Assembly (NCBI GenBank): GCA_025786725.1
Contig: JAHLTZ010000012.1
Location: forward strand, 1-64,000
DNA from: Syncephalis fuscata
Taxonomy: Eukaryota > Zoopagomycota > Zoopagomycetes > Zoopagales > Piptocephalidaceae
Length of the DNA: 64,000 nucleotides
Direction: 5' to 3'
Position numbers and translations under genes: made by a program. The notes under the pieces are model-generated. The model made no database searches. It saw only the letters and a list, made by a program, of their open reading frames with translations, and was not told the origin of the DNA. Below, one piece after another: positions 1 to 58,658 of the stretch (within the stretch, counting starts at the first letter, position 1; each line of letters opens with the position of its first letter).

Positions 1-3000
1 TAAATACAAGGGATACCCTTACATTTCTAGTTAAATATTACTTAACTTTTTACTTAACTTTAGTTAACTTTTAATTAACTTTTTTAGCCGTATATTTGGT
101 CGATTTTTGTTGGATTTTTGTTGGATTTTTTTGGAAAAAACGGCCCAACTCCCCGTATTTTTAATTCCACGGATACTTGTCCTAAAAATACACGGTGCCA
201 CTTGTTCGAACCGCAAGAAGCAGGCGCGTCGATCCTGATATGCTAAAAATCGCCAAAAATCGTGGGAATGCGTGAAAAATACGCGGAGTTGGCCTCCATA
301 CAAAAAACGGCACTTTTTGCATGTTTTGATTTTTAATTCATTGGATAAATTTTTGGCGATTTTTTCGAATATATAGATCGACGCACCATATCATTGCGGT
401 CAGAACGAGTGGTCCTGTGTATTTTTAGAGCAATTATCCGTAGAGTTAAAAATACGTGAAGTTTGATGACTAGTTTATAGTGGCATATTTCACGAAATCC
501 TAAGAATATCCCCTATAACTAGCAAACTAGAACTCCCGTATTTTTAATTCTACGGATACTTGCTCTAAAAATACACAGGACCACTCGTTCGGACCGCAAT
601 GACATGGTGCGTCGATCTATATTCGAAAAAATCGCCAAAAATTTATCCAATGAATTAAAAATCAAAACATGCAAAAAGTGCCGTTTTTTGTATGGAGGCC
701 AACTCCGCGTATTTTTCACGCATTCCCACGATTTTTGGCGATTTTTAGCATATCAGGATCGACGCGCCTGCTTCTTGCGGTTCGAACAAGTGGCACGTGT
801 ATTTTTAGGACAAGTATCCGTGGAATTAAAAATACGGGGAGTTGGGCCGTTTTTCCAAAAAAATCCACAAAAATCCAACAAAAATCGACCAAATATACGG
901 CTAAAAAAGTTAATTAAAAGTTAACTAAAGTTAAGTAAAAAGTTAAGTAATATTTAACTAGAAATATAAGGGTATCTTGCATTTGTTAATAAAATATAAC
1001 TAAAAGTTAATTGTTAATGTTAGTTAATTAACTAATGGTAATGATAACCGTTTAACAACTAGTTAACTTTTAATTACTTAACTAATTACTTAACTTTAGT
1101 TAACTTTGTCTATTTTATTAACAAAATGCAAGGATACCCTTACATTTCTAGTTAAATATTACTTAACTTTTTACTTAACTTTAGTTAACTTTTATTAACT
1201 TTTTTAGCCGTATATTTGGTCGATTTTTGTTGGATTTTTGTCGATTTTTTTGGAAAAAACGGCCCAACTCCCCGTATTTTTAATTCCACGGATACTTGAC
1301 CTAAAAATACACGGTGCCACTTGTTCGAACCGCAAGAAGCAGGCGCGTCGATCCTGATATGCTAAAAATCGCCAAAAATCGTGGGAATGCGTGAAAAATA
1401 CGCGGAGTTGGCCTCCATACAAAAAACGGCACTTTTTGCATGTTTTGATTTTTAATTCATTGGATAAATTTTTGGCGATTTTTTCGAATATATAGATCGA
1501 CGCACCATATCATTGCGGTCGAACGAGTGGTCCTGTGTATTTTTAGAGCAATTATCCGTAGAATTAAAAATACGGGAGTTCTAGTTTGCTGGTTATAGGG
1601 GGATATCTTAGGATTTCGTGAAATATGCCACTATAAACTAGTCATCAAACTCACGTATTTTTAACTCTACGGATATTGCTCTAAAAATACACAGGACCAC
1701 TCGTTCTGACCGCAATGATATGGTGCGTCGATCTATATATTCAAAAAATCGCCAAAAATTTATCCAATGAATTAAAAATCAAAACATGCAAAAAGTGCCG
1801 TTTTTTGTATGGAGGTCCAACTCCGCGTATTTTTCACGCATTCCCACGATTTTTGGCGATTTTTAGCATATCAGGATCGACGCGCCTGCTTCTTGCGGTT
1901 CGAACAAGTGGCACCGTGTATTTTTAGGACAAGTATCCGTGGAATTAAAAATACGGGGAGTTGGGCCGTTTTTCCAAAAAATCCACAAAAATCCAACAAA
2001 AATCGACCAAATATACGGCTAAAAAAGTTAACTAAAAGTTAACTAAAGTTAAGTAAAAAGTTAAGTAATATTGACTAGAAATGTAAGGGTATCCTTGCTA
2101 TTTTGTAATAAAATATAGACTAAAAGTTAACTAAAAGTTAAGTAATTAGTTAGTAATTAACTAATGGTAATGATAACGTTTAACACTTAGTTAACTTGTT
2201 AATTACTTAACTAATTACTTAACTTTTAGTTAACTTTAGTCTATATTTATTAACAAAATAGCAAGGATACCCTTACATTTTAGTCAAATATTACTTAACT
2301 TTTTACTTAACTTTAGTTAACTTTTAATTAACTTTTTTAGCCGTATATTTGGTCGATTTTTGTTGGATTTTTGTCGGATTTTTTGGGAAAAACGGCCCAA
2401 CTCCCCGTATTTTTAATTCCACGGATACTTGTCCTAAAAATACACGGTGCCACTTGTTCGAACCGCAAGAAGCAGGCGCGTCGATCCTGATATGCTAAAA
2501 ATCGCCAAAAATCGTGGGAATGCGTGAAAAATACGCGGAGTTGGACCTCCATACAAAAAACGGCACTTTTTGCATGTTTTGATTTTTAATTCATTGGATA
2601 AATTTTTGGCGATTTTTTCGAATATATAGATCGACGCACCATATTATTGCGGTCGAACGAGTGGTCCTGTGTATTTTTAGAGCAATATCCGTAGATTAAA
2701 AATACGGAAGTTTGTTGCTGGTTATAGGGGATATTTAGGATTCGTGAAATATGCCCTATAACTAGCATCAAACTCCCGTATTTTTAATCTACGGATAATT
2801 GCTCTAAAAATACACAGGACCACTCGTTCGACCGCAATGATATGGTGCGTCGATCCTATATATTCAAAAAATCGCCAAAAATTTATCCAATGAATTAAAA
2901 ATCAAAACATGCAAAAAGTGCCGTTTTTTGTATGGAGGTCCAACTCCGCGTATTTTTCACGCATTCCCACGATTTTTGGCGATTTTTAGCATATCAGGAT

Positions 3001-4330
3001 CGACGCGCCTGCTTCTTGCGGTTCGAACAAGTGGCACCGTGTATTTTTAGGACAAGTATCCGTGGAATTAAAAATACGGGGAGTTGGGCCGTTTTTCCCA
3101 AAAAATCCGACAAAAATCCAACAAAAATCGACCAAATATACGGCTAAAAAAGTTAATTAAAAGTTAACTAAAGTTAAGTAAAAGTTAAGTAATATTGACT
3201 AAAATGTAAGGGTATCCTTGCTATTTTGAATAAATATAGACTAAAAGTTAACTAAAAGTTAAGTAATTAGTTAAGTAATTAACTAATGGTATGATAACCG
3301 TTAACATTAGTTACTTGTTAATTACTTAACTAATTACTTAACTTTATTAACTTTTAGTCTATATTTATTAACAAAATAGCAAGGGATACCCTTACATTTT
3401 AGTCAAATATTACTTAACTTTTTACTTAACTTTAGTTAACTTTTAATTAACTTTTTTAGCCGTATATTTGGTCGATTTTTGTTGGATTTTTGTGGATTTT
3501 TTGGGAAAAACGGCCCAACTCCCCGTATTTTTAATTCCACGGATACTTGTCCTAAAAATACACGGTGCCACTTGTTCGAACCGCAAGAAGCAGGCGCGTC
3601 GATCCTGATATGCTAAAAAATCGCCAAAAATCGTGGGAATGCGTGAAAAATACGCGGAGTTGGACCTCCATACAAAAAACGGCACTTTTTGCATGTTTTG
3701 ATTTTTAATTCATTGGATAAATTTTTGGCGATTTTTTGAATATATAGATCGACGCATCATATCATTGCGGTCGAACGAGTGGTCCTGTGTATTTTTAGAG
3801 CAATTATCCGTAGAATTAAAAATACGGGAGTTTAGTTGCTGGTTATAGGGGATATTTAGGATTCGTGAAATATGCCACTATAAACTAGTCATCAAACTTC
3901 CGTATTTTTAACTCTACGGATAATTGCTCTAAAAATACACAGGACCACTCGTTCGACCGCAATATATGTGCGTCGATCTATATATTCAAAAAATCGCCAA
4001 AAATTTATCCAATGAATTAAAAATCAAAACATGCAAAAAGTGCCGTTTTTTGTATGGAGGCCAACTCCGCGTATTTTTCACGCATTCCCACGATTTTTGG
4101 CGATTTTTAGCATATCAGGATCGACGCGCCTGCTTCTTGCGGTCCGAACAAGTGGCACCGTGTATTTTTAGGACAAGTATCCGTGGAATTAAAAATACGG
4201 GGAGTTGGGCCGTTTTTCCCAAAAAATCCGACAAAAATCCAACAAAAATCGACCAAATATACGGCTAAAAAAGTTAATTAAAAGTTAACTAAAGTTAAGT
4301 AAAAAGTTAAGTAATATTTAACTAGAAATG
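1..4330. repeat. Tandem array of ~1.1-kb palindromic repeat units
   Basis: Four successive units start their left core near 64, 1204, 2337 and 3443, a period of about 1.11-1.14 kb. Each unit has two inverted arms of ~430 bp joined at a short centre near 500, 1640, 2760 and 3870. The units are separated by AT-rich linkers made of permutations of AGTTAACT and TTAAGTAAT. The arms carry repeated words such as AAAAATACGG and AAAAATCGCC. Translations of 60-106 codons recur on both strands only because the repeat recurs, and no protein family is visible. The array touches the left edge, so it probably continues outside. This is seen directly; the nature of the repeat (satellite or nested foldback elements) is inference. 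Confidence 0.9.
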
Positions 4331-5807
4331 TAAGGATATCCCTTGCATTTTGAATAAATATAGACTAAAAGTTAGTAACTTGTTAATTACTTAACTAATT
4401 ACTTAACTTTAATTAAGTTGTTAAATAGTTATCATTACCATTAGTTAATTAACTAACTAATTATTAACTAATTAATTATGCTATGCTTAATAATTAGTTT
4501 ATTGGTTATTTATTAATGATTACTACTGATTATTTGTTTATATTGATTAAATAGCACTAATATTATGGTTGGCGTATTAGTGCCATTAGTAACATATGAT
4601 TGTGCATTGCAGCATTGGCGCTAGATAATGCATAAACCATTAGCAGTATATATGCTGGACATATCCAATTATAGTGGCGCTAGCTATCGTATGATCATAG
4701 CAACTGTGTCAACTATTAGCATTGTGTGTACACTTGCATATTCATCAGTAATTGTATATTGGTGTATACCATACCTAAAATTTAGGATATATAAACTACG
4801 CAATTGTATAGTATTATGTAGAAGTATAACTGCTATGGTTGGACTATAGTATAACAGGGAAGACAAATGAGTGTTTGATAAAGGTTGGTTTTTTATTTGA
4901 TATGATAATTATTACTACATTTATAGCAATGTTGGATATAGAGAAGAGAAAAAAGTAAACCAATTATTAAGTATTTGTAAATTTGTGATAAAATGTTGTA
5001 GAGTATCTGTTGATGTCATAAACATAACAAATGTTAGCAATCTGTTTAACATATGTAATAGTTAGAATTAGGTAATATTAACCGTGTAAATTTGAAATTA
5101 TAATGATTTTTAAATATAGTAATCATCATATAGTGAGTTGTATAGATTCTATAAATAAATTTTCAATAAGATAGCAGAATATTGATGTATATACAATACT
5201 TGTATCTGTAGCTATATCCGTTAGTATTAAGCATCAATTGTAATTACCCCCAAGTGCTATGATATGGATTAGAAACTGATTGTCTATCAATAGATCATTG
5301 ACGCTTTATATGATTTTAGATAGTTTAACGCTTCATTATATGAGTTGACCAGTATTATAGCAAAACAGCAAATATGTTGTAGTATTTTCAAGTGGATAAA
5401 CACATTTATAATTGATTGATAATGTATTATGACATAAATGCCTATAATACTATTATTGATACACTTATAGTTTGTCGTTATGCTTGAGCGACTATAAAAC
5501 ACTTTATATATTTTACAATAAACAATATGCATTACATGTATGGCTAGTATTGATCTTATAGCCATGACCTTGATGAAGGTGTACGAATAGCAATGCCGAA
5601 ATTATAGTGCATGCAGCTCAATGGAAGAATTAAGTTGAAATATATTACTAATGAAGCTACAAACAAACAAACAATAGTTCTTAATAAAGTGTTAATACTT
5701 ATAATAAAATAGTGTACAAGCGAATAAGTATATAATAGGAAAGACATAAATAACAGTCGCAAAATCACTGAGCATATATACTTAAATAGATGAGCGATAT
5801 TAGTTGA
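4331..5807. other. AT-rich intergenic DNA, no gene seen
   Basis: Only short, low-complexity open frames on both strands, no recognisable domain and no convincing splice structure. The left part (4331-4560) is a decaying edge of the preceding TTAACT-type linker repeat. Confidence 0.6.
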
Positions 5808-24456: not shown

Positions 24457-27400
24457 GCTAACGTCTTGAAACCGTCGGGTATGCTGTATTTAAAAATAAA
24501 GATATTACACATGGTTAATGTATAAGTCATCAATATACAATAGCACTTACAGCCTATTAATATTAGTATATTGGTGTACACAATACATGGTATATAATTA
24601 GTGCATAAACCAGAAATATACAATATACTTACCTTCTATTATATTAAGGTGTTGTTATACATGGTACATGGTGTAATTAATTTATAGCAGAAATATACAA
24701 TTCTACTTACGGCCTATTAATATTAAGTTGTTGGCGCACATAGCACATCGTATACAATCAGTGGATGATCAATTAATATATAATACCACTTACAAACTAT
24801 TAATATTAGACAATGAATACACATGGTGCATCGTATACAATTAGTGAATGGTCAATCAATGTGCAGTACCACTTACAATCTATTATATTGAGTTGTTGAT
24901 ACACACAACACATGGTATATAATTAGCCAACAGTCAATTAATATACAATATCACTTGCCTCCTATCATATTAAGTTGTTGATGTATACAATACATGTTAC
25001 ATAATTAGTCAATAGTAAATCAATGCATAATACAACTTACTGTCTATTATATTAAGTTAATTCATACAATGAATAGCATGTAATTATTTATAGTCAATTA
25101 ATATACAATACCACTTACCATCTATCATATTAAGTTGTGATGTATACAATACACGTTATATAATTAGTCAATAGTAAATCAATATATAATACAACTTACT
25201 ACCTATTATATTAAATTATTGATGCACACAATGAATAGCATGCGGTTAGTGCATGATCAATCAATATACAATACCACTTACAATCTGTTAGTTTGTTAAC
25301 GCATACATTACATAGTGTATAATTAGTGTATAGTTCATTGATATACAACACCACTTACAATCTATTAATTTGTTAACATACACGGTACATAGCATGTGAT
25401 TAGTATAGTCAGTTAATATACAATACCACTTACCCCCTATTAATATTAAATAGTTGGTACAATCAATCAATAGCATAGTTAATATATAATTAATTAACAC
25501 ATAGTACAACTTACGGCCTATCAGTATTATATAATCAGCACAATCAATCAATAGCACGTGGTTAGTAAGTAAGCAATTAATACATAATATAACTTACGGC
25601 CTATTAATATTAAATAGTTAGTACAATTAGTAAATAGCAAGTTAATGTATAGCCCTTTAATATACAATACCACTTACATTCTATTAATATTAAGTAATCG
25701 GTGCAATCAACAAATAGCATAGTTAGTGTATAGTTAACTAATATACAATACAACTTACTATCTATTAATATTAAATAATTAGTACAATTAGTAAATAGCA
25801 TAGTTAATATATATCCAGTTAATTATAATACAACTTACATCCTATTAATATTAAATAATTGGTACGGTTAGTAAATAGTATAGTTAATGTGCAGTCAGTT
25901 AATATATATTGCCACTTACTGCCTATTAATATTAAATAAATAATACCACCAGTAAATAGCAATTAATATATAGTCAGTCGATATACAATACCACTTACTC
26001 CCTATTAATATTAAATAATTGGTACGAGCAGTAAATAGCATATAATTAGTAAATAACCAATTAATACATAATACAACTTACAAACTATTGATATTAAATA
26101 AGCGGTACAGTCAGTAAATAGTATAGTTAATATATAGTCAATCGATATACAATACAACTTACGATCTATTAATATTAAATAATTGGTATTATTGATAAAT
26201 CGCATAGTTAATGTATAGTCGATTAATATACAATGCCACTTACTCCCTATTAATATTAAATAGTTGGTATCATTAGTAGATAACATAGTTAATATATTGT
26301 TAATTAATATAAAATACCACTTACATTCTATTATATTAAATAATCAGTAAATCAATCAATAGCATGTGGTTAGTGCGTAATCAATTAATATAAAGTACCA
26401 CTTACTATCTATTGATATTAAATAATCGGTACAATCAATCAATAACACGTGATTAATGAGTAATCAATTAATATAAAATACCACTTACGCTCTGTTAATA
26501 TTAAATAATTGGTACAATTAGTAAATAGTATAGTTAATTTATAGTCAGTTAATATACAATATCGCTTACTTTCTATTAATATTAAATAATTGGTACAATC
26601 AGTAAATAGCATAGTTAATGTATGTTCAGTCAATACACAATGCCACTTACTGCCTATTAATATTAAATAAATAATACCATCAATAAATGGCATAATTAAC
26701 GCACAGTCAGTTAATATACAATGCAACTTACTGCCTATTAACGTTAAATTGTTAATCACACAATATGCAATATGTAATTAGCTAATAGTCAGTTAATATA
26801 CAATGCCACTTACATCCTATATCATCAAGTTGTCGATACACATAATAAATAGTATGGAGTGAGTGCTAATCAGTTAATATACAATACAACTTACCATCTA
26901 TGGCATTGGATTATTGATACACACAATAAATCATATATAATTAGTGCATAGAAGTTAATATGCAATAAAAATTACCCCCTATTACAGGAAATTGTTAATA
27001 CCATCAGTAAATAGCATAATTAATGTATAGTCAATCGATATACAATGCCACTTACTGCCTATTAGTATTAAGTTGTTGATACACATAGTGCATAATATAT
27101 AATTAGCTGGTGTTCAATTAATATACAATAACTTACATGCTATCGATATTAAGTTGTTGATATACACGGTGCATGGTATAACATTAGTTTATAGTCAATT
27201 AATACATAATACACCTTACCCTCTATGGCATTAAGTTGTTGATACACACAATACATGGTATATAATTAGTTTATAAGTTAGCAATATGTAATAGCACTTA
27301 CGACCTATTAGTATTAAGTTATTGACACACATGGTGCATAGCATGTAATTAGCTAATGTTTGTTAATATACAATATAACTTACATTTCGCTAATATTAGG

Positions 27401-27880
27401 TTGTTAATGAACACAGTATATGACATACAATTAGTATATGTTCTATTGACATGTAACATAACCTACCAGCTATTGATATTAATTTATTGATGCAACCAGT
27501 AAATAACGTAGTCGATATAGTCAATTAATATGTGATATCACTTACAAACTATTAATAGTAAATAGTTGGTACAATTAGTAAATAGCATGTGATTAGTGAG
27601 TACTTGATTAATATAAAATACTACTTACCTTTTATTAATAGTAAATAGTTGGTACAATCAACAAATAGCATGTGATTAGTGCAGTCAGTTAGTACGCAAC
27701 ACAACTTACTGCCTATTATAATCATGATTTAGGAATACTGTTAGTAAACAAAATTCTATGCTATATTTATTAACATTTCAACATACCACGACGAACTAAG
27801 GCTGGGTTAGCATCCACCATGATTGTAGCGGCTATCAAAGCCACAATGATGGTGCAAACGACGGCAATGGAGAGCTTCAT
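24457..27880 (-). CDS. Secreted six-cysteine peptide encoded by 39 microexons (gene A)
   Basis: Exon 1 (27787-27880) encodes a signal peptide, MKLSIAVVCTIIVALIAA, then NPALVRR, and stops in phase 1. On the minus strand an AG acceptor and a GTAAGT-like donor then recur every ~81 bp, enclosing just 3 nt each time (6 nt once). Lowest coordinate of each microexon: 27710, 27546, 27467, 27384 (6 nt), 27302, 27220, 27137, 27056, 26976, 26895, 26814, 26732, 26651, 26570, 26489, 26406, 26325, 26244, 26163, 26082, 25999, 25920, 25839, 25759, 25678, 25598, 25515, 25434, 25359, 25282, 25200, 25119, 25041, 24959, 24877, 24794, 24711, 24633, 24550. The last exon is 24457-24482 (TAG stop). Joined: 240 nt, 79 residues, no internal stop. 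The mature part has C-x2-C-x3-C-x13-C-x4-C-x5-C (starting KCQACRDGC, ending CQGSYPTVSRR) and is basic. No known family. A unit at 27629 lacks a normal acceptor. Splicing is inferred from sequence only. Confidence 0.8.
24483..27786 (-). repeat. Tandem array of ~81-bp intron-plus-microexon units
   Basis: Forty-one related introns of about 67-81 nt lie head to tail. The minus-strand consensus starts GTAAGTGGTATTGTATATTAA and ends near TTTAATATTAATAG, with ACTAATTGTACC-like words before the end. The intron bodies are clearly related to one another, most strongly between 25430 and 26760, while the three bases between them differ from unit to unit. Variant donors are GCAAGT (24953-24958), GTAAGC (26564-26569), GTAATT (26970-26975), GTAAGG (27214-27219) and GTAGGT (27461-27466). 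The pattern is what tandem duplication of an intron carrying a minimal exon would leave. Confidence 0.85.
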
Positions 27881-28017
27881 GATGATATTGATTTGTTAAG
27901 ACAAACAAATAAAAGAGATCGTAGAGTGTGGGTGGTATAAAGTGGAGAGTAGTGCGTGTATAGCAAGAAGTAGAGTGTAATGATGATATCGCAGTTGGTT
28001 GTGTGTATTTTGTGGAC

Positions 28018-28027
28018 TATTTATACT
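28018..28027 (-). promoter_or_regulatory. TATA-like box upstream of gene A
   Basis: The minus strand reads GTATAAATAG about 140 bp upstream of the ATG at 27880. The related gene B has a similar AT core (CCTAAATAGG) about 115 bp upstream of its ATG. The position suits a core promoter element, but this is motif-based inference only. Confidence 0.4.
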
Positions 28028-31290: not shown

Positions 31291-32683
31291 TTAATGATCT
31301 GGAACACATACTGCAATATCAAATTTGTAATGTTATTTGCTAGTTAGTATTGGGTATTTGGTTGGTATTCTAACATACCGTCCTCTATATTTAATATTTA
31401 TCCATGAGTGATAATGAATAAGATAAAATAATTAGGCTTTTATAATAGTTGCTTACCAGTTTCCGGTACTAGTTTCCATGATTATACCAAGAAGCATTAT
31501 TTATTAGTGTTTGGGATATAATTTTATAATTTGACTCACAGCCTATTATTTTTAATTAATGGTTATGGTATTTGTTAGTACTAGTAAATGTATTCTAAAA
31601 TTACTTAGGTTTTAGCTTACACGGTGCTAATATTAATTTAACAAATATGACATTGAAAAAATGCAATATTAGTAACTTGCACGAGCAATTTACAGTGTAA
31701 CTTACGGCCTAGTAGTAATTTATTAGCATGATGGTAAGCAAATTGTTATTAAATCCAATAGTTGCTAAATAAATTAACTTACATGCTGTTGGTAATGATG
31801 TAAAATACTACAAGTTAATATGCTATCTTAATGTTTTATTTTGAACTTACGCGCTATTGGTATTAATTTATGGTATGTAATATTAGTAGGTATTATACTA
31901 TTAAATGTTTTGTATCAACTAATCAAAAAAACATCTTACCAACTTTTGAATTGAATTAAAAGGGCCATAATATTAAATATTCTTGATTAAAATTTTCCAT
32001 AAAGTATAATAATTTAACTTACCAACTAAAATAATCATTTAGGGATTACATTTGAATAATCATTCTTATTTAGTACATACATCTCACTTAAATAATCCAA
32101 CTTACAACCTATTGGTATTAACAGGTCAGTATCATGCGAATAAATAAATAACACATAGTATACAACTTACATTGTATTGGTTCTAATGGTTATAGTATTG
32201 ATGATTATTTACAGTTAACAATCTAAATTAATAGTTTAAACAAGACTTATTACCACCTATTGACATATACATTTATGTATATATATATGCATTACAATAG
32301 CAATACGTTAGTTAGTAGAATAATGTTTATTAGCCTATATCTTACATTCTTTTGTATTTGTCAACCGCATTTACATATATTTGATTAGCTAAAGCTTAAT
32401 AGCCAAAAAATGCAACCTACTTTGGACTTTTGTAGTGAATTAATGCAACGTTTGGAAGTATTATTTCATTAGTTATCAAATAAATATGTAAATTGTAATA
32501 GCACACCTTTTTCAATTCTCCCTATTAAATTAATCACCATCAATACAAGTTAATATAATTGCAGAGCCGCTATAGCTGTGTCGTACCATTGCAGACTTCG
32601 GCAGGAACGGCCTCTATTATAGTCGCACCTACTGCGAGGAAGACAGTAATAAGAGTGCAGATAGTAGCAACTGAGATCTTCAT
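31291..32683 (-). CDS. Secreted six-cysteine peptide encoded by microexons (gene B)
   Basis: Exon 1 (32587-32683) encodes a signal peptide similar to that of gene A (MKISVATICTLITVFLAVGA) and ends in phase 1 within VPAEVCN-G. Fifteen internal exons follow, all multiples of 3 and all phase 1: 32507-32521, 32421-32426, 32346-32348, 32254-32256, 32171-32182, 32106-32108, 32023-32025, 31940-31942, 31851-31853, 31783-31785, 31706-31708, 31621-31626, 31540-31542, 31457-31468, 31379-31384. The last exon is 31291-31310 (TAA). Introns are 62-89 nt, all GT-AG. The joined 201 nt give 66 residues without an internal stop. After the signal sequence the cysteine pattern is C-x9-C-x4-C-x4-C-x2-C-x7-C, with the stretches KCEPIQCFVAPCPPC and VCVPDH. 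The exon 1 donor (GTACGA) and the acceptors at 32427 and 31943 (AAAAG) are weak, so those joins are less certain. No known family. Confidence 0.72.
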
Positions 32684-38307: not shown

Positions 38308-40022
38308 ACTATTACATTAGTGATGTGACAATAAGTGGCGTATTGAAAGAGTGCGTTTAGCATAACTAAGTGACAAAATGCAATAAAAAATCAATAAAAC
38401 TAATTTATTTAATAAATCGTTACTAGAATTAGGTACAACTTTACATAAAATAGCTCAAAATACATGGTGTTTTGCACAAGTATGCAGATAACATATGTAC
38501 GACTATTGGCAACTTATAATGTAATTGTGTTGCGGGATGATGCAATGATAGTGATGATACGTTAATAAATTTGTAAAAATAGCTGTTTTTTACTGTTTAT
38601 GGTTTGTATAGTTAAAACACAGCAAAATGATTGCCGGATTCGAGTTCTCCATGCTTGGATGTATCGTTTGGTATGACTTATAAAACAATAATTTTTGCGA
38701 AAAATGTTGACCAAAAATGCAATTTACGTTATTTTTAATACATCTAGTAAATCGTTGCTAATACTACGTATAACTTTACGTAAAATGACGCAGATTGCCT
38801 GATATTTTGCACAAGTATGCATATGGCATATAGCTATCTATTGACAAAGCATAGTATTGTTGTATTGCGCATTGATGCAATGGTTGCAACAATACACTAG
38901 TGAATGTGCAAAAATAGCAGTTTTATGCCGTTCATGGCTTATATAAGCAAAATACAACAGAATGGTTGTTAGATTCCGGTTTTCCATGTTTGGATGTATC
39001 GTTTGATATAAGATTTAGAACAATGATTTTTGCAAAAAATGTTAGTCAAAAATGCAATTTACGTAAAGTCTATTAACAAGAAAATGACCAAGTTTCATAA
39101 TATTAGAAAATTTAATATTAAGAATGAGTCTATATAAAGTGAATTTAAAGCCCTCTAAAGTGTTAAAACAAAAATAATAGCAAGTTAATAAGAATAAACG
39201 ACGATGCGCTGTGACAATCTATGTCATTTATACATAAATACAACAAAGGTTTGTTAATAAACTTTACGTAAATTGCATTTTTGACTAACATTTTTTGCAA
39301 AAATCATTGTTCTAAATCTTATATCAAACGATACATCCAAACATGGAAAACCCGAATCTAACAACCATTCTGTTGTATTTTACTTATATAAGCCATGAAC
39401 GGCATAAAACTGCTATTTTTGCACATTTACTAGTGTATTGTTGCAACCATTGCATCAATGCGCAATACAACAATACTATGCTTTGTCAATAGATAGCTAT
39501 ATGCCATATGCATACTTGTGCAAAATATCAGGCAATCTGCGTCATTTTACGTAAAGTTATACGTAGTATTAGCAACGATTTACTAGATGTATTAAAAATA
39601 ACGTAAATTGCATTTTTGGTCAACATTTTTCGCAAAAATTATTGTTTTATAAGTCATACCAAACAATACATCCAAACATGGAGAACTCGAATCCGGCAAT
39701 CATTTTGCTGTGTTTTAACTATACAAACCATAAACAGTAAAAAACAGCTATTTTTACAAATTTATTAACGTATCATCACTATCATTGCATCATCCCGCAA
39801 CACAATTACATTATAAGTTGCCAATAGTCGTACATATGTTATCTGCATACTTGTGCAAAACACCATGTATTTTGAGCTATTTTATGTAAAGTTGTACCTA
39901 ATTCTAGTAACGATTTATTAAATAAATTAGTTTTATTGATTTTTTATTGCATTTTGTCACTTAGTTATGCTAAACGCACTCTTTCAATACGCCACTTATT
40001 GTCACATCACTAATGTAATAGT
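38308..40022. repeat. 1.7-kb palindromic element, copy a
   Basis: The arms of about 760 bp are inverted copies with few differences (outer ends ACTATTACATTAGTGATGTG and its complement). The ~190-bp central spacer lies around 39075-39270. Arms carry GATACATCCAAACATGG and its inverse. Copy b is at 56950-58658 with its spacer in the opposite orientation. No transposase frame; a foldback-type element is the best guess. Confidence 0.9.
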
Positions 40023-56949: not shown

Positions 56950-58658
56950 ACTATTACATTAGTGATGTGACAATGAGTGGCGTATTGAAAGAGTGCGTTT
57001 AGCATAACTAAGTGACAAAATGCAATAAAAAATCAATAAAACTAATTTATTTAATAAATCGTTACTAGAATTATGTACACTTTACATAAAATAGCTCAAA
57101 ATACATGGTGTTTTGCACAAGTATGCAGATAACATATGTACAACTATTGGCAACTTATAATGTAATTGTGTTGCGGGATAATGCAATGGTAGTGACGATA
57201 CGTTAATAAATTTGTAAAAATAGCTGTTTTTTACTGTTTATGGTTTGTATAGTTAAAACACAGCAAAATGATTGCCGGATTCGAGTTCTTTATGCTTGGA
57301 TGTATCGTTTGGTATGACTTATAAAACAATAATTTTTGCGAAAAATGTTGACCAAAAATGCAATTTACGTTATTTTTAATACATCTAGTAAATCGTTGCT
57401 AATACTACGTATAACTTTACGTAAAATGACGCAGATTGCCTGATATTTTGCACAAGTATGCATATGGCATATAGCTATCTATTGACAAAGCATAGTATTG
57501 TTGTATTGCGCATTGATGCAATGGTTGCAACAATACACTAGTAAATGTGCAAAAATAGCAGTTTTATGCCGTTCATGGCTTATATAAGCAAAATACAACA
57601 GAATGGTTGTTAGATTCGGGTTTTCCATGCTTGGATGTATCGTTTGATATAAGATTTAGAACAATGATTTTTGCAAAAAATGTTAGTCAAAAATGCAATT
57701 TACGTAAAGTTTACTAACAAACCTTGTTATATTTATGTATAAATGACATAGATTGCACAGCGCATCGTCGTTTATTCTTATTAACTTGCTATTATTTTTG
57801 TTTTAACACTTTAGAGGGCTTTAGATTCACTTTATATAGACTCATTCTTAATATTAAATTTTCTAATATTATGAAACTTGGTCATTTTCTTGTTAATAAA
57901 CTTTACGTAAATTGCATTTTTGACTAACATTTTTTGCAAAAATCATTGTTCTAAATCTTATATCAAACGATACATCCAAGCATGGAAAACCCGAATCTAA
58001 CAACCATTCTGTTGTATTTTGCTTATATAAGCCATGAACGGCATAAAACTGCTATTTTTGTACATTTACTAGTGTATTGTTGCAACCATTGCATCAATGC
58101 GCAATACAACAATACTATGCTTTGTCAATAGATAGCTATATGCCATATGCATACTTGTGCAAAATATCAGGCAATCTGCGTCATTTTACGTAAAGTTATA
58201 CGTAGTATTAGCAACGATTTACTAGATGTATTAAAAATAACGTAAATTGCATTTTTGGTCAACATTTTTCGCAAAAATTATTGTTTTATAAGTCATACCA
58301 AACGATACATCCAAGCATGGAGAACTCGAATCCGGCAATCATTTTGCTGTGTTTTAACTATACAAACCATAAACAGTAAAAAACAGCTATTTTTACAAAT
58401 TTATTAACGTATCGTCACTACCATTGCATTATCCCACAACACAATTACATTATAAGTTGCCAATAGTTGTACATATGTTATCTGCATACTTGTGCAAAAC
58501 ACCATGTATTTTGAGCTATTTTATGTAAAGCTGTACATAATTCTAGTAACGATTTATTAAATAAATTAGTTTTATTGATTTTTTATTGCATTTTGTCACT
58601 TAGTTATGCTAAACGCACTCTTTCAATACGCCACTCATTGTCACATCATTAATGTAGT
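56950..58658. repeat. 1.7-kb palindromic element, copy b
   Basis: Same arms and ends as 38308-40022. The central spacer (about 57715-57905, containing a 67-codon frame) is in the opposite orientation to that in copy a. Confidence 0.9.

Follow-up and report, generated by a model that had tools for sequence, protein, structure and literature searches.

Among the genes described as built of many very small exons, the micro-exon genes (MEGs) of schistosomes have exons of 6-36 nt, and the bicycle genes of aphids, whose exons are longer than 3 nt, encode proteins of hemipteran source with two Cys-Tyr-Cys motifs. The present analysis concerns a gene on the minus strand of Syncephalis fuscata, a mycoparasite of other fungi, found within positions 1 to 64,000 of contig C24 (JAHLTZ010000012.1; 726,019 bases) of a 28.95-Mb assembly; these 64,000 nucleotides are referred to as the window. 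The gene appears to consist of a signal-peptide exon, an array of 39 microexons, nearly all of a single codon, and a short last exon, and it has many relatives in the genome, both arrays of the same kind and uninterrupted paralogues.

Schistosome MEGs encode secreted parasite proteins from a coding region of mostly very small symmetrical exons and are linked with diversification at the host interface (PMC4350168), a combination that resembles the S. fuscata arrays, for which secretion is predicted. Unlike MEGs, the fungal arrays string together about 20-40 exons of one codon (3 nt) each, their introns are tandem repeats of one another and uninterrupted paralogues exist; the comparison is one of design and not of sequence. 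The bicycle genes and megacycle are likewise large families, in their case of effector candidates, whose numerous small internal exons almost all share a phase, but bicycle genes have about 17 exons on average (PMC9168663) and encode a different protein. Membership of that family is not indicated, the source here being fungal and CYC occurring in 0 of 20 joined peptides. The KQY/KHI cassette effectors of the pea aphid also combine a highly conserved signal-peptide coding region with a divergent mature part from miniature exons (PMC7495047); they are insect genes, and mature parts made of single-codon exons are not mentioned in the portion of that account used here. Exons of 3 nt have been recorded in isolation in mouse Ncam (PMC8042270) and as two exons in lipS genes of one fungus (PMC5639578), i.e. 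one or two per gene, whereas dozens follow one another in the arrays. Fungal stwintrons and introner-like introns also form families of similar introns (PMC9024468, PMC12403724), but the arrays show no nested introns and their repeats are tandem within one gene. In the open-access full-text literature, which leaves most subscription papers and preprints outside, no gene design like that of the single-codon-exon arrays was found among the papers listed. By analogy the arrays would work like an extreme form of micro-exon gene design with one codon per exon, no kinship being claimed. A run of about 20-40 successive one-codon exons in a large gene family would be a limit case of exon-intron structure. 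It would test the minimum size and maximum number of exons for a fungal spliceosome, would provide a system in which splice-site quality, the order of intron removal and exon skipping could be read codon by codon, and would add another, apparently unrelated lineage to the schistosomes and aphids in which secreted peptides of a parasite are built of microexons.

The window array has a period of ~75-84 bp, each unit placing exactly three bases (six in one case) between an acceptor, mostly TTAATAG, and a GTAAGT donor, with introns of ~78 nt of the form GTAAGT...TAG. It is read here as the body of a coding gene, a tandem repeat of one GT-AG intron (~78 nt) plus one 3-nt phase-1 codon exon, which would be spliced to give a secreted mini-protein; judged from the sequence, this reading is given a probability of about 0.92. 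An earlier note on this DNA had described 39 microexons, 38 of them of 3 nt and one of 6 nt, in phase 1 throughout, and a joined frame of 79 residues with six cysteines, and all of this was reproduced by a splicing model that is blind to frame. The joined frame has 79 codons and no internal stop, and the six cysteines lie in a mature part of 48 residues. The same note had placed an AG acceptor every ~81 bp; at unit 2, near 27628, AATAA stands in place of TAG. In the closest other copy (L021, on contig C201) the acceptor is present at unit 2, ahead of a 3-nt exon AAG; in the window either this codon would be skipped in frame or a zero-length site would be used. The frame of the window copy ends at a TAG, six residues past the position at which 13 of the 24 modelled arrays have a TAA two bases into the last exon; the window copy reads CATACCCG there and the frame continues. 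The window gene may be a weakened copy or allele. An early 6-nt exon is found in 20 of the 24 modelled arrays and is missing from L024, L025, L044 and L045. The product of exon 1 has the look of a signal peptide followed by a short pro-region and then Arg-Arg, which we take to be a Kex2-type site. The N-terminus is hydrophobic by sequence, and a helix is predicted at 5-20 in the structural model of uninterrupted L050. The upstream flanks available for seven uninterrupted loci carry TATAAATAG in three cases (L026, L027, L030) and TTTAAATAG in four (L028, L029, L031, L032).

Two versions of the signal exon, used as queries in protein searches, gave at least 150 scored genomic places each, from 309 and 343 first-look candidates, and these counts are lower bounds that include alleles and broken copies. 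The DNA downstream was classified at 44 places, i.e. the window and loci L021-L064 without L062, which prolongs L052. An array was found at 29 of them and an uninterrupted mature part, in frame without introns, at 13 (L026-L032, L050, L051, L055, L056, L057, L060), two being unclear (L058, L059). Of the 29 arrays 24 were modelled, and the other five (L049, L053, L054, L063, L064) were viewed over 760-841 bases only. Several places are presumed to be allelic, among them the pairs window/L021, L022/L023, L024/L025 and L036/L039. Open-frame length was discarded as a proxy for telling array from uninterrupted members because the upstream sequence may be open too. Three of the uninterrupted members (L056, L057, L060) have the same kind of signal exon with quite different mature parts and are outermost in a midpoint-rooted tree; they are perhaps older or recombined members of the family.

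A chance origin of the array was ruled out by pattern counts in the window and the genome together with shuffles of exon order. TAG-NNN-GTAAGT occurs 37 times in the window (31 of them within the array) against 0.75 expected from 100 shuffles. When the splicing model was run from 178 other GTA[A/T]G sites, a random sample of the window with both gene regions excluded, none gave 10 or more exons (median 0) and the six best-scoring chains had 1-4, compared with 40 chain members for the array. Genome-wide, AATAG-NNN-GTAAGTNGTATTGTATATTA, a pattern blind to 6-nt exons with the differing acceptor ATATTAG, was found at 274 places, rising only to 275 if NNN was replaced by 0-20 bases, with 0 in the reversed control. 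The pattern of the first intron, matched as a pattern alone and independently of signal exons, has 74 genomic occurrences and again 0 in the reversed control. In the 22-array model exons could take any length between 0 and 12 nt, the acceptor and donor matrices being trained on 3-nt sites. Of 691 exons, counted after removal of two terminal one-base chain members (L043, L046), 654 are of 3 nt and 32 of 6 nt, with two of zero, one of one and two of two bases. Thus 686 of the 691 are of 3 or 6 nt, and phase 1 holds in the window, as in a micro-exon architecture of tiny exons, multiples of 3 and in one phase. Plain counts of TAG-k-GTAAG in 20 arrays gave 529 for k=3, 24 for k=6 and 2 for every other k up to 30 together; these counts and the free-length model agree, which disposes of a bias from matrices trained on 3-nt sites.

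The joined products were compared with 5000 within-array shuffles of exon order in 18 arrays, one of each presumed allelic pair (the window copy, L022, L024, L039) having been taken out. Read in the phase that the signal exon fixes, the 585 codons contain no stop; 10 and 50 stops occur in the two other frames, and the shuffles have a mean of 41 (minimum 26). Cysteines number 100, against 48 in the shuffles (maximum 66), and C-x2-C-x3-C is present in 13 of the 18 arrays, against a shuffle mean of 0.24 and a maximum of 3. Six or seven cysteines per product were counted in 15 of the 18, L037, L040 and L047 having 3, 4 and 2 respectively. The same spacing is found in uninterrupted paralogues, e.g. 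ACQDCSNGC...CSRNCKKFC (L030), RCTDCIDAC...CLNQCTNQKKC (L031) and ECEECLNIC...CYSSCRPKC (L050). A Pfam scan of five peptides of the family gave nothing above the cut-off. The predicted model of uninterrupted L050 has helices at 37-48 and 54-64 after the signal helix (mean pLDDT 67.9, pTM 0.35, 8-sequence alignment), which suggests with low confidence a helical hairpin; alpha-hairpinin-like disulfide peptides have a helix-loop-helix fold.

The two forms can be compared directly between an array, C239 (L052 + L062), whose 35 joined microexons give AKDPAKCNQCMSQCYGNYPYPSQAINDCPKRCAKQC, and L027, which has AKDQAKCNRCINECEGVPKPDAKEKCNKPGRCKAEC in a single uninterrupted open frame. The two proteins align over their full length with a score of 79, while the maxima were 47 in 500 exon shuffles and 55 in 500 residue shuffles, and the joined C239 DNA aligns with that of L027 across exon junctions. 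In similarity to nine uninterrupted peptides 7 of 20 arrays beat all 500 of their exon shuffles. A protein search with an uninterrupted member, in which candidates were limited to about 38-120 residues, matched four annotated proteins (P0001-P0004), all from S. fuscata. Four annotated proteins within those length limits stand against at least 150 genomic places, which suggests that most of the family escapes gene callers and RNA aligners. P0001 is uninterrupted and identical to L028 and L029. For P0003, at the C239 locus, a search that allowed GT/GC-AG introns of 30-1500 nt found one encoding, in which exon 1 comes first, introns of 74, 78 and 75 nt flank the 3-nt exons CCA and AAG and the last exon starts with the third triplet, ATC, and runs on through the next intron to a stop. 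An independent annotation, for which the supporting evidence is not stated, therefore already splices consecutive 3-nt exons. P0004 (58 residues) has the same form, i.e. signal exon, three triplets and read-through, with one mismatch, N for D; the N is absent from its locus L063 (C289:358934-359026) and from L064, a similar copy located on C290. The P0003 model and the uninterrupted paralogues would both lend indirect support to removal of the array introns from RNA.

The array introns match the U2 type in their motifs, a GTAAGT donor, a CTRAY-like branch site and a YAG acceptor, with low divergence at donors and acceptors. Of the 691 counted, all but seven (684) are no longer than 90 nt, falling between 57 and 85 nt, and 442 of these are of 78-80 nt; all residues modulo 3 occur. 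Intron sequences were compared for 521 introns of 16 arrays, the presumed-allele copies (window, L022, L024, L039) as well as L037 and L047 being excluded. CTRAY is present in 419 of them against 128 after shuffling. Similarity within arrays is 0.602 for neighbours and 0.532 for introns 12 units apart, with 0.537 between arrays, and this decay with distance is a mark of tandem duplication or conversion. The first and last introns form types of their own, each similar from array to array (0.72, 0.76). Repeats of one triplet side by side (GCG GCG GCG in L036, ATT ATT in L034) would fit recent unit duplication. Eight long introns (450-901 nt) contain insertions of two related kinds, of about 400 and about 800 bp, on both sides of which the array grammar resumes, and these recur at different loci (L021, L024, L025, L034, L047, L048, L061).

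Divergence within the four presumed allelic pairs was 5/797 at donors and 12/798 at acceptors; intron interiors differed at 451/9646 positions, the triplets at 32/402 and the signal exon at 2/382. Donors and acceptors differ from interiors at P 2e-14, or 9e-5 without the window pair. The excess of changes in triplets over introns is due to the window pair only (P 0.006 with it, 0.45 without), whose two arrays differ in unit number. Since allelic divergence is low at the splice sites and not at the triplets, the former appear to be held and the latter free or driven to change; positive selection on triplets is not claimed. Indels between presumed alleles start in intron interiors in 30 of 31 cases, and some of those in the window pair cover most of a unit.

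The sequence itself shows the anatomy of the arrays and its recurrence, an open joined frame and a cysteine framework beyond those of the shuffles, homology of joined C239 with L027 over its length, and little divergence at the splice sites. A number of observations weigh against this reading. Model ends are unsure in 7 of the 24 modelled arrays (L024, L037, L043, L046, L047, L061, C239), and L022 lacks the GT of its first donor. The exact C-x2-C-x3-C is missing in 5 of 18 arrays (L037, L038, L040, L043, L047), and L061, like the three low-cysteine arrays already named, has fewer than six cysteines. Triplets are no more conserved than introns, at 9/285 against 176/6938 without the window pair (P 0.45). 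The nearest relative of an intron lies in another array for 386 of 521 and in its own for 135, from which much spread by whole-array copying follows. Only the 7 of 20 arrays mentioned exceed every exon shuffle in similarity to uninterrupted peptides, L038, L040 and L043 being unremarkable. No contiguous copy in the genome, as a close retrocopy would be, matched any of 15 joined mature DNAs, an empty result that is uninformative. The annotated matches are only four; of these P0003 reads through after three units, P0002, at an array locus, takes a different splice path, and P0004, with N where the joined triplets give D, is not reproducible from the assembly.

The array could be a minisatellite within one long intron reaching from exon 1 to the last exon, the triplets never entering mRNA, as might be supposed from the tandem repetition of the units and from P0002 and P0004, which among the three public models placed at arrays fail to join the triplets exactly as predicted. 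This is very improbable, as the joined triplets have no stops in 585 codons and a cysteine framework beyond that of the shuffles, joined C239 is homologous to an uninterrupted paralogue, and exon length is fixed at 3 whereas intron length takes all residues modulo 3. Each codon might instead be an optional cassette, alternative splicing giving many peptides per gene as has been proposed for schistosome micro-exon genes. Skipping would be frame-neutral, with lengths divisible by 3 in all but three exons of the 22 arrays and a single phase, and the loss of the unit 2 acceptor in the window keeps the frame open; yet the cysteine framework is that of the product which includes every exon, and we consider cassette use unlikely.

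A further explanation is that many array copies, perhaps including the one in the window, are decaying pseudogenes, with peptide made from some arrays and the uninterrupted genes only. The lost acceptor and altered stop of the window copy, the lost first donor of L022, the short or odd arrays L037 and L047 and the fact that several arrays carry inserts of about 400 and 800 bp all speak for decay, but splice sites are about three to four times less diverged than intron interiors between presumed alleles and the joined microexons are stop-free in 18 of 18 tested arrays, so that this too is not likely. The arrays could also have arisen by repeated introner-like insertion at every codon of an uninterrupted gene and not by tandem duplication of an intron plus its codon, and the position of uninterrupted L056, L057 and L060 outside the arrays in the midpoint-rooted tree would accord with that. 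The identical phase at every codon, the decay of intron similarity with distance and the runs of identical neighbouring triplets (GCG GCG GCG in L036) suit tandem duplication better, and the introner origin is regarded as quite improbable.

For an array that is a coding gene of single-codon exons, we infer transcription and the following course of expression. About 20-40 short introns would be removed by the spliceosome via intron definition, presumably in steps, since an exon of 3 nt could hardly have its two ends occupied at once, and the signal-peptide exon, 20-40 triplets and the short last exon would be joined. The product would be a secreted mini-protein of about 20-50 residues, probably Kex2-processed after Arg-Arg and usually with six cysteines in the order C-x2-C-x3-C-x(n)-C-x(about 3)-C-x(n)-C. 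Since each unit is one residue and frame-neutral, single residues would be inserted, deleted or swapped whenever units were gained, lost or converted between similar introns, and the single-codon units might thereby be a device for fast diversification of a host-facing peptide family. That the peptides have an effector-like role toward the fungal host is a guess prompted by the lifestyle of the fungus and the size of the family.

The relationship of the two gene forms was examined in a midpoint-rooted tree of signal exon plus 3' untranslated region (UTR), for which 35 sequences were given and four (L024, L043, L046, C239) dropped without a recognised 3'UTR; L037, L049, L053, L054, L058, L059 and L061 were not entered. 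Among the 31 members array and uninterrupted states change six times by parsimony, a count whose support is too thin to set polarity, as support values were given for few of the nodes lying between array and uninterrupted forms. For simultaneous loss of all introns, reverse transcription of spliced mRNA would be the simplest route. On a broader and tentative view, which we hold to be possible but somewhat less than evenly probable, exon, tandem repeat and evolutionary change would all have the codon as their unit, peptides would grow, shrink and be altered one residue at a time by unit duplication, deletion and conversion, in-frame skipping would give combinatorial repertoires, and arrays would occasionally be replaced by spliced reverse-transcribed copies, the uninterrupted paralogues.

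Table 1. Coordinates in the window of the array gene and of a second gene of the same design.
Feature	Position	Strand	Basis
TATA-box-like TATAAATAG, upstream of exon 1	28017..28025	-	sequence; promoter function putative
Exon 1, 94 nt, ends in phase 1; encodes MKLSIAVVCTIIVALIAATIMVDANPALVRR plus first base of next codon	27787..27880	-	at least 150 scored genomic matches
First intron (GTATGT...ATAG, 74 nt), a type of its own, similar from array to array	27713..27786	-	
Array of 39 microexons (38 of 3 nt, one of 6 nt)	24551..27712	-	splicing model
First bases of array exons	27712 27548 27469 27389(6 nt) 27304 27222 27139 27058 26978 26897 26816 26734 26653 26572 26491 26408 26327 26246 26165 26084 26001 25922 25841 25761 25680 25600 25517 25436 25361 25284 25202 25121 25043 24961 24879 24796 24713 24635 24553	-	
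Degenerate unit 2, AATAA-AAG-GTAAGT, no AG acceptor ahead of AAG	27624..27634	-	sequence
Sole 6-nt exon, CGAAAT, after ATATTAG not TTAATAG	27384..27389	-	splicing model
Last exon, to stop TAG	24458..24483	-	splicing model
Second, divergent gene: signal exon MKISVATICTLITVFLAVGATIIEAVPAEVCN	32587..32683	-	splicing model
Second gene: fifteen microexons, all phase 1 (9 of 3 nt, 3 of 6, 2 of 12, 1 of 15)	31379..32521	-	splicing model
Second gene: first bases of microexons	32521 32426 32348 32256 32182 32108 32025 31942 31853 31785 31708 31626 31542 31468 31384	-	
Second gene: last exon, to TAA; joined product ends ...CLPETEDVCVPDH (first of three acceptors)	31291..31310	-	splicing model

The second gene of the same design (32683-31291, minus strand) has the joined product CNGRIEKVQKCEPIQCFVAPCPPCLPETEDVCVPDH, which is cysteine-rich. 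Its splicing model favoured exon lengths divisible by 3, and the shuffle probability of no stop and at least 5 Cys was 0.0034. In the genome its signal exon matches strongly only itself, with seven weak matches besides, and for the joined product there was no candidate sharing three words. This gene may be an older, less regular stage of the design.

Two other repeats were seen in the window. Positions 1-4500 hold A/T-rich short repeats (TTACTTAACTT and its complement) that recur about every 1.1 kb, which suggests a tandem of larger units. A nearly identical 335-bp unit is present in about 1.9 copies at each of 39266-39917 and 57905-58556, 18.6 kb apart.

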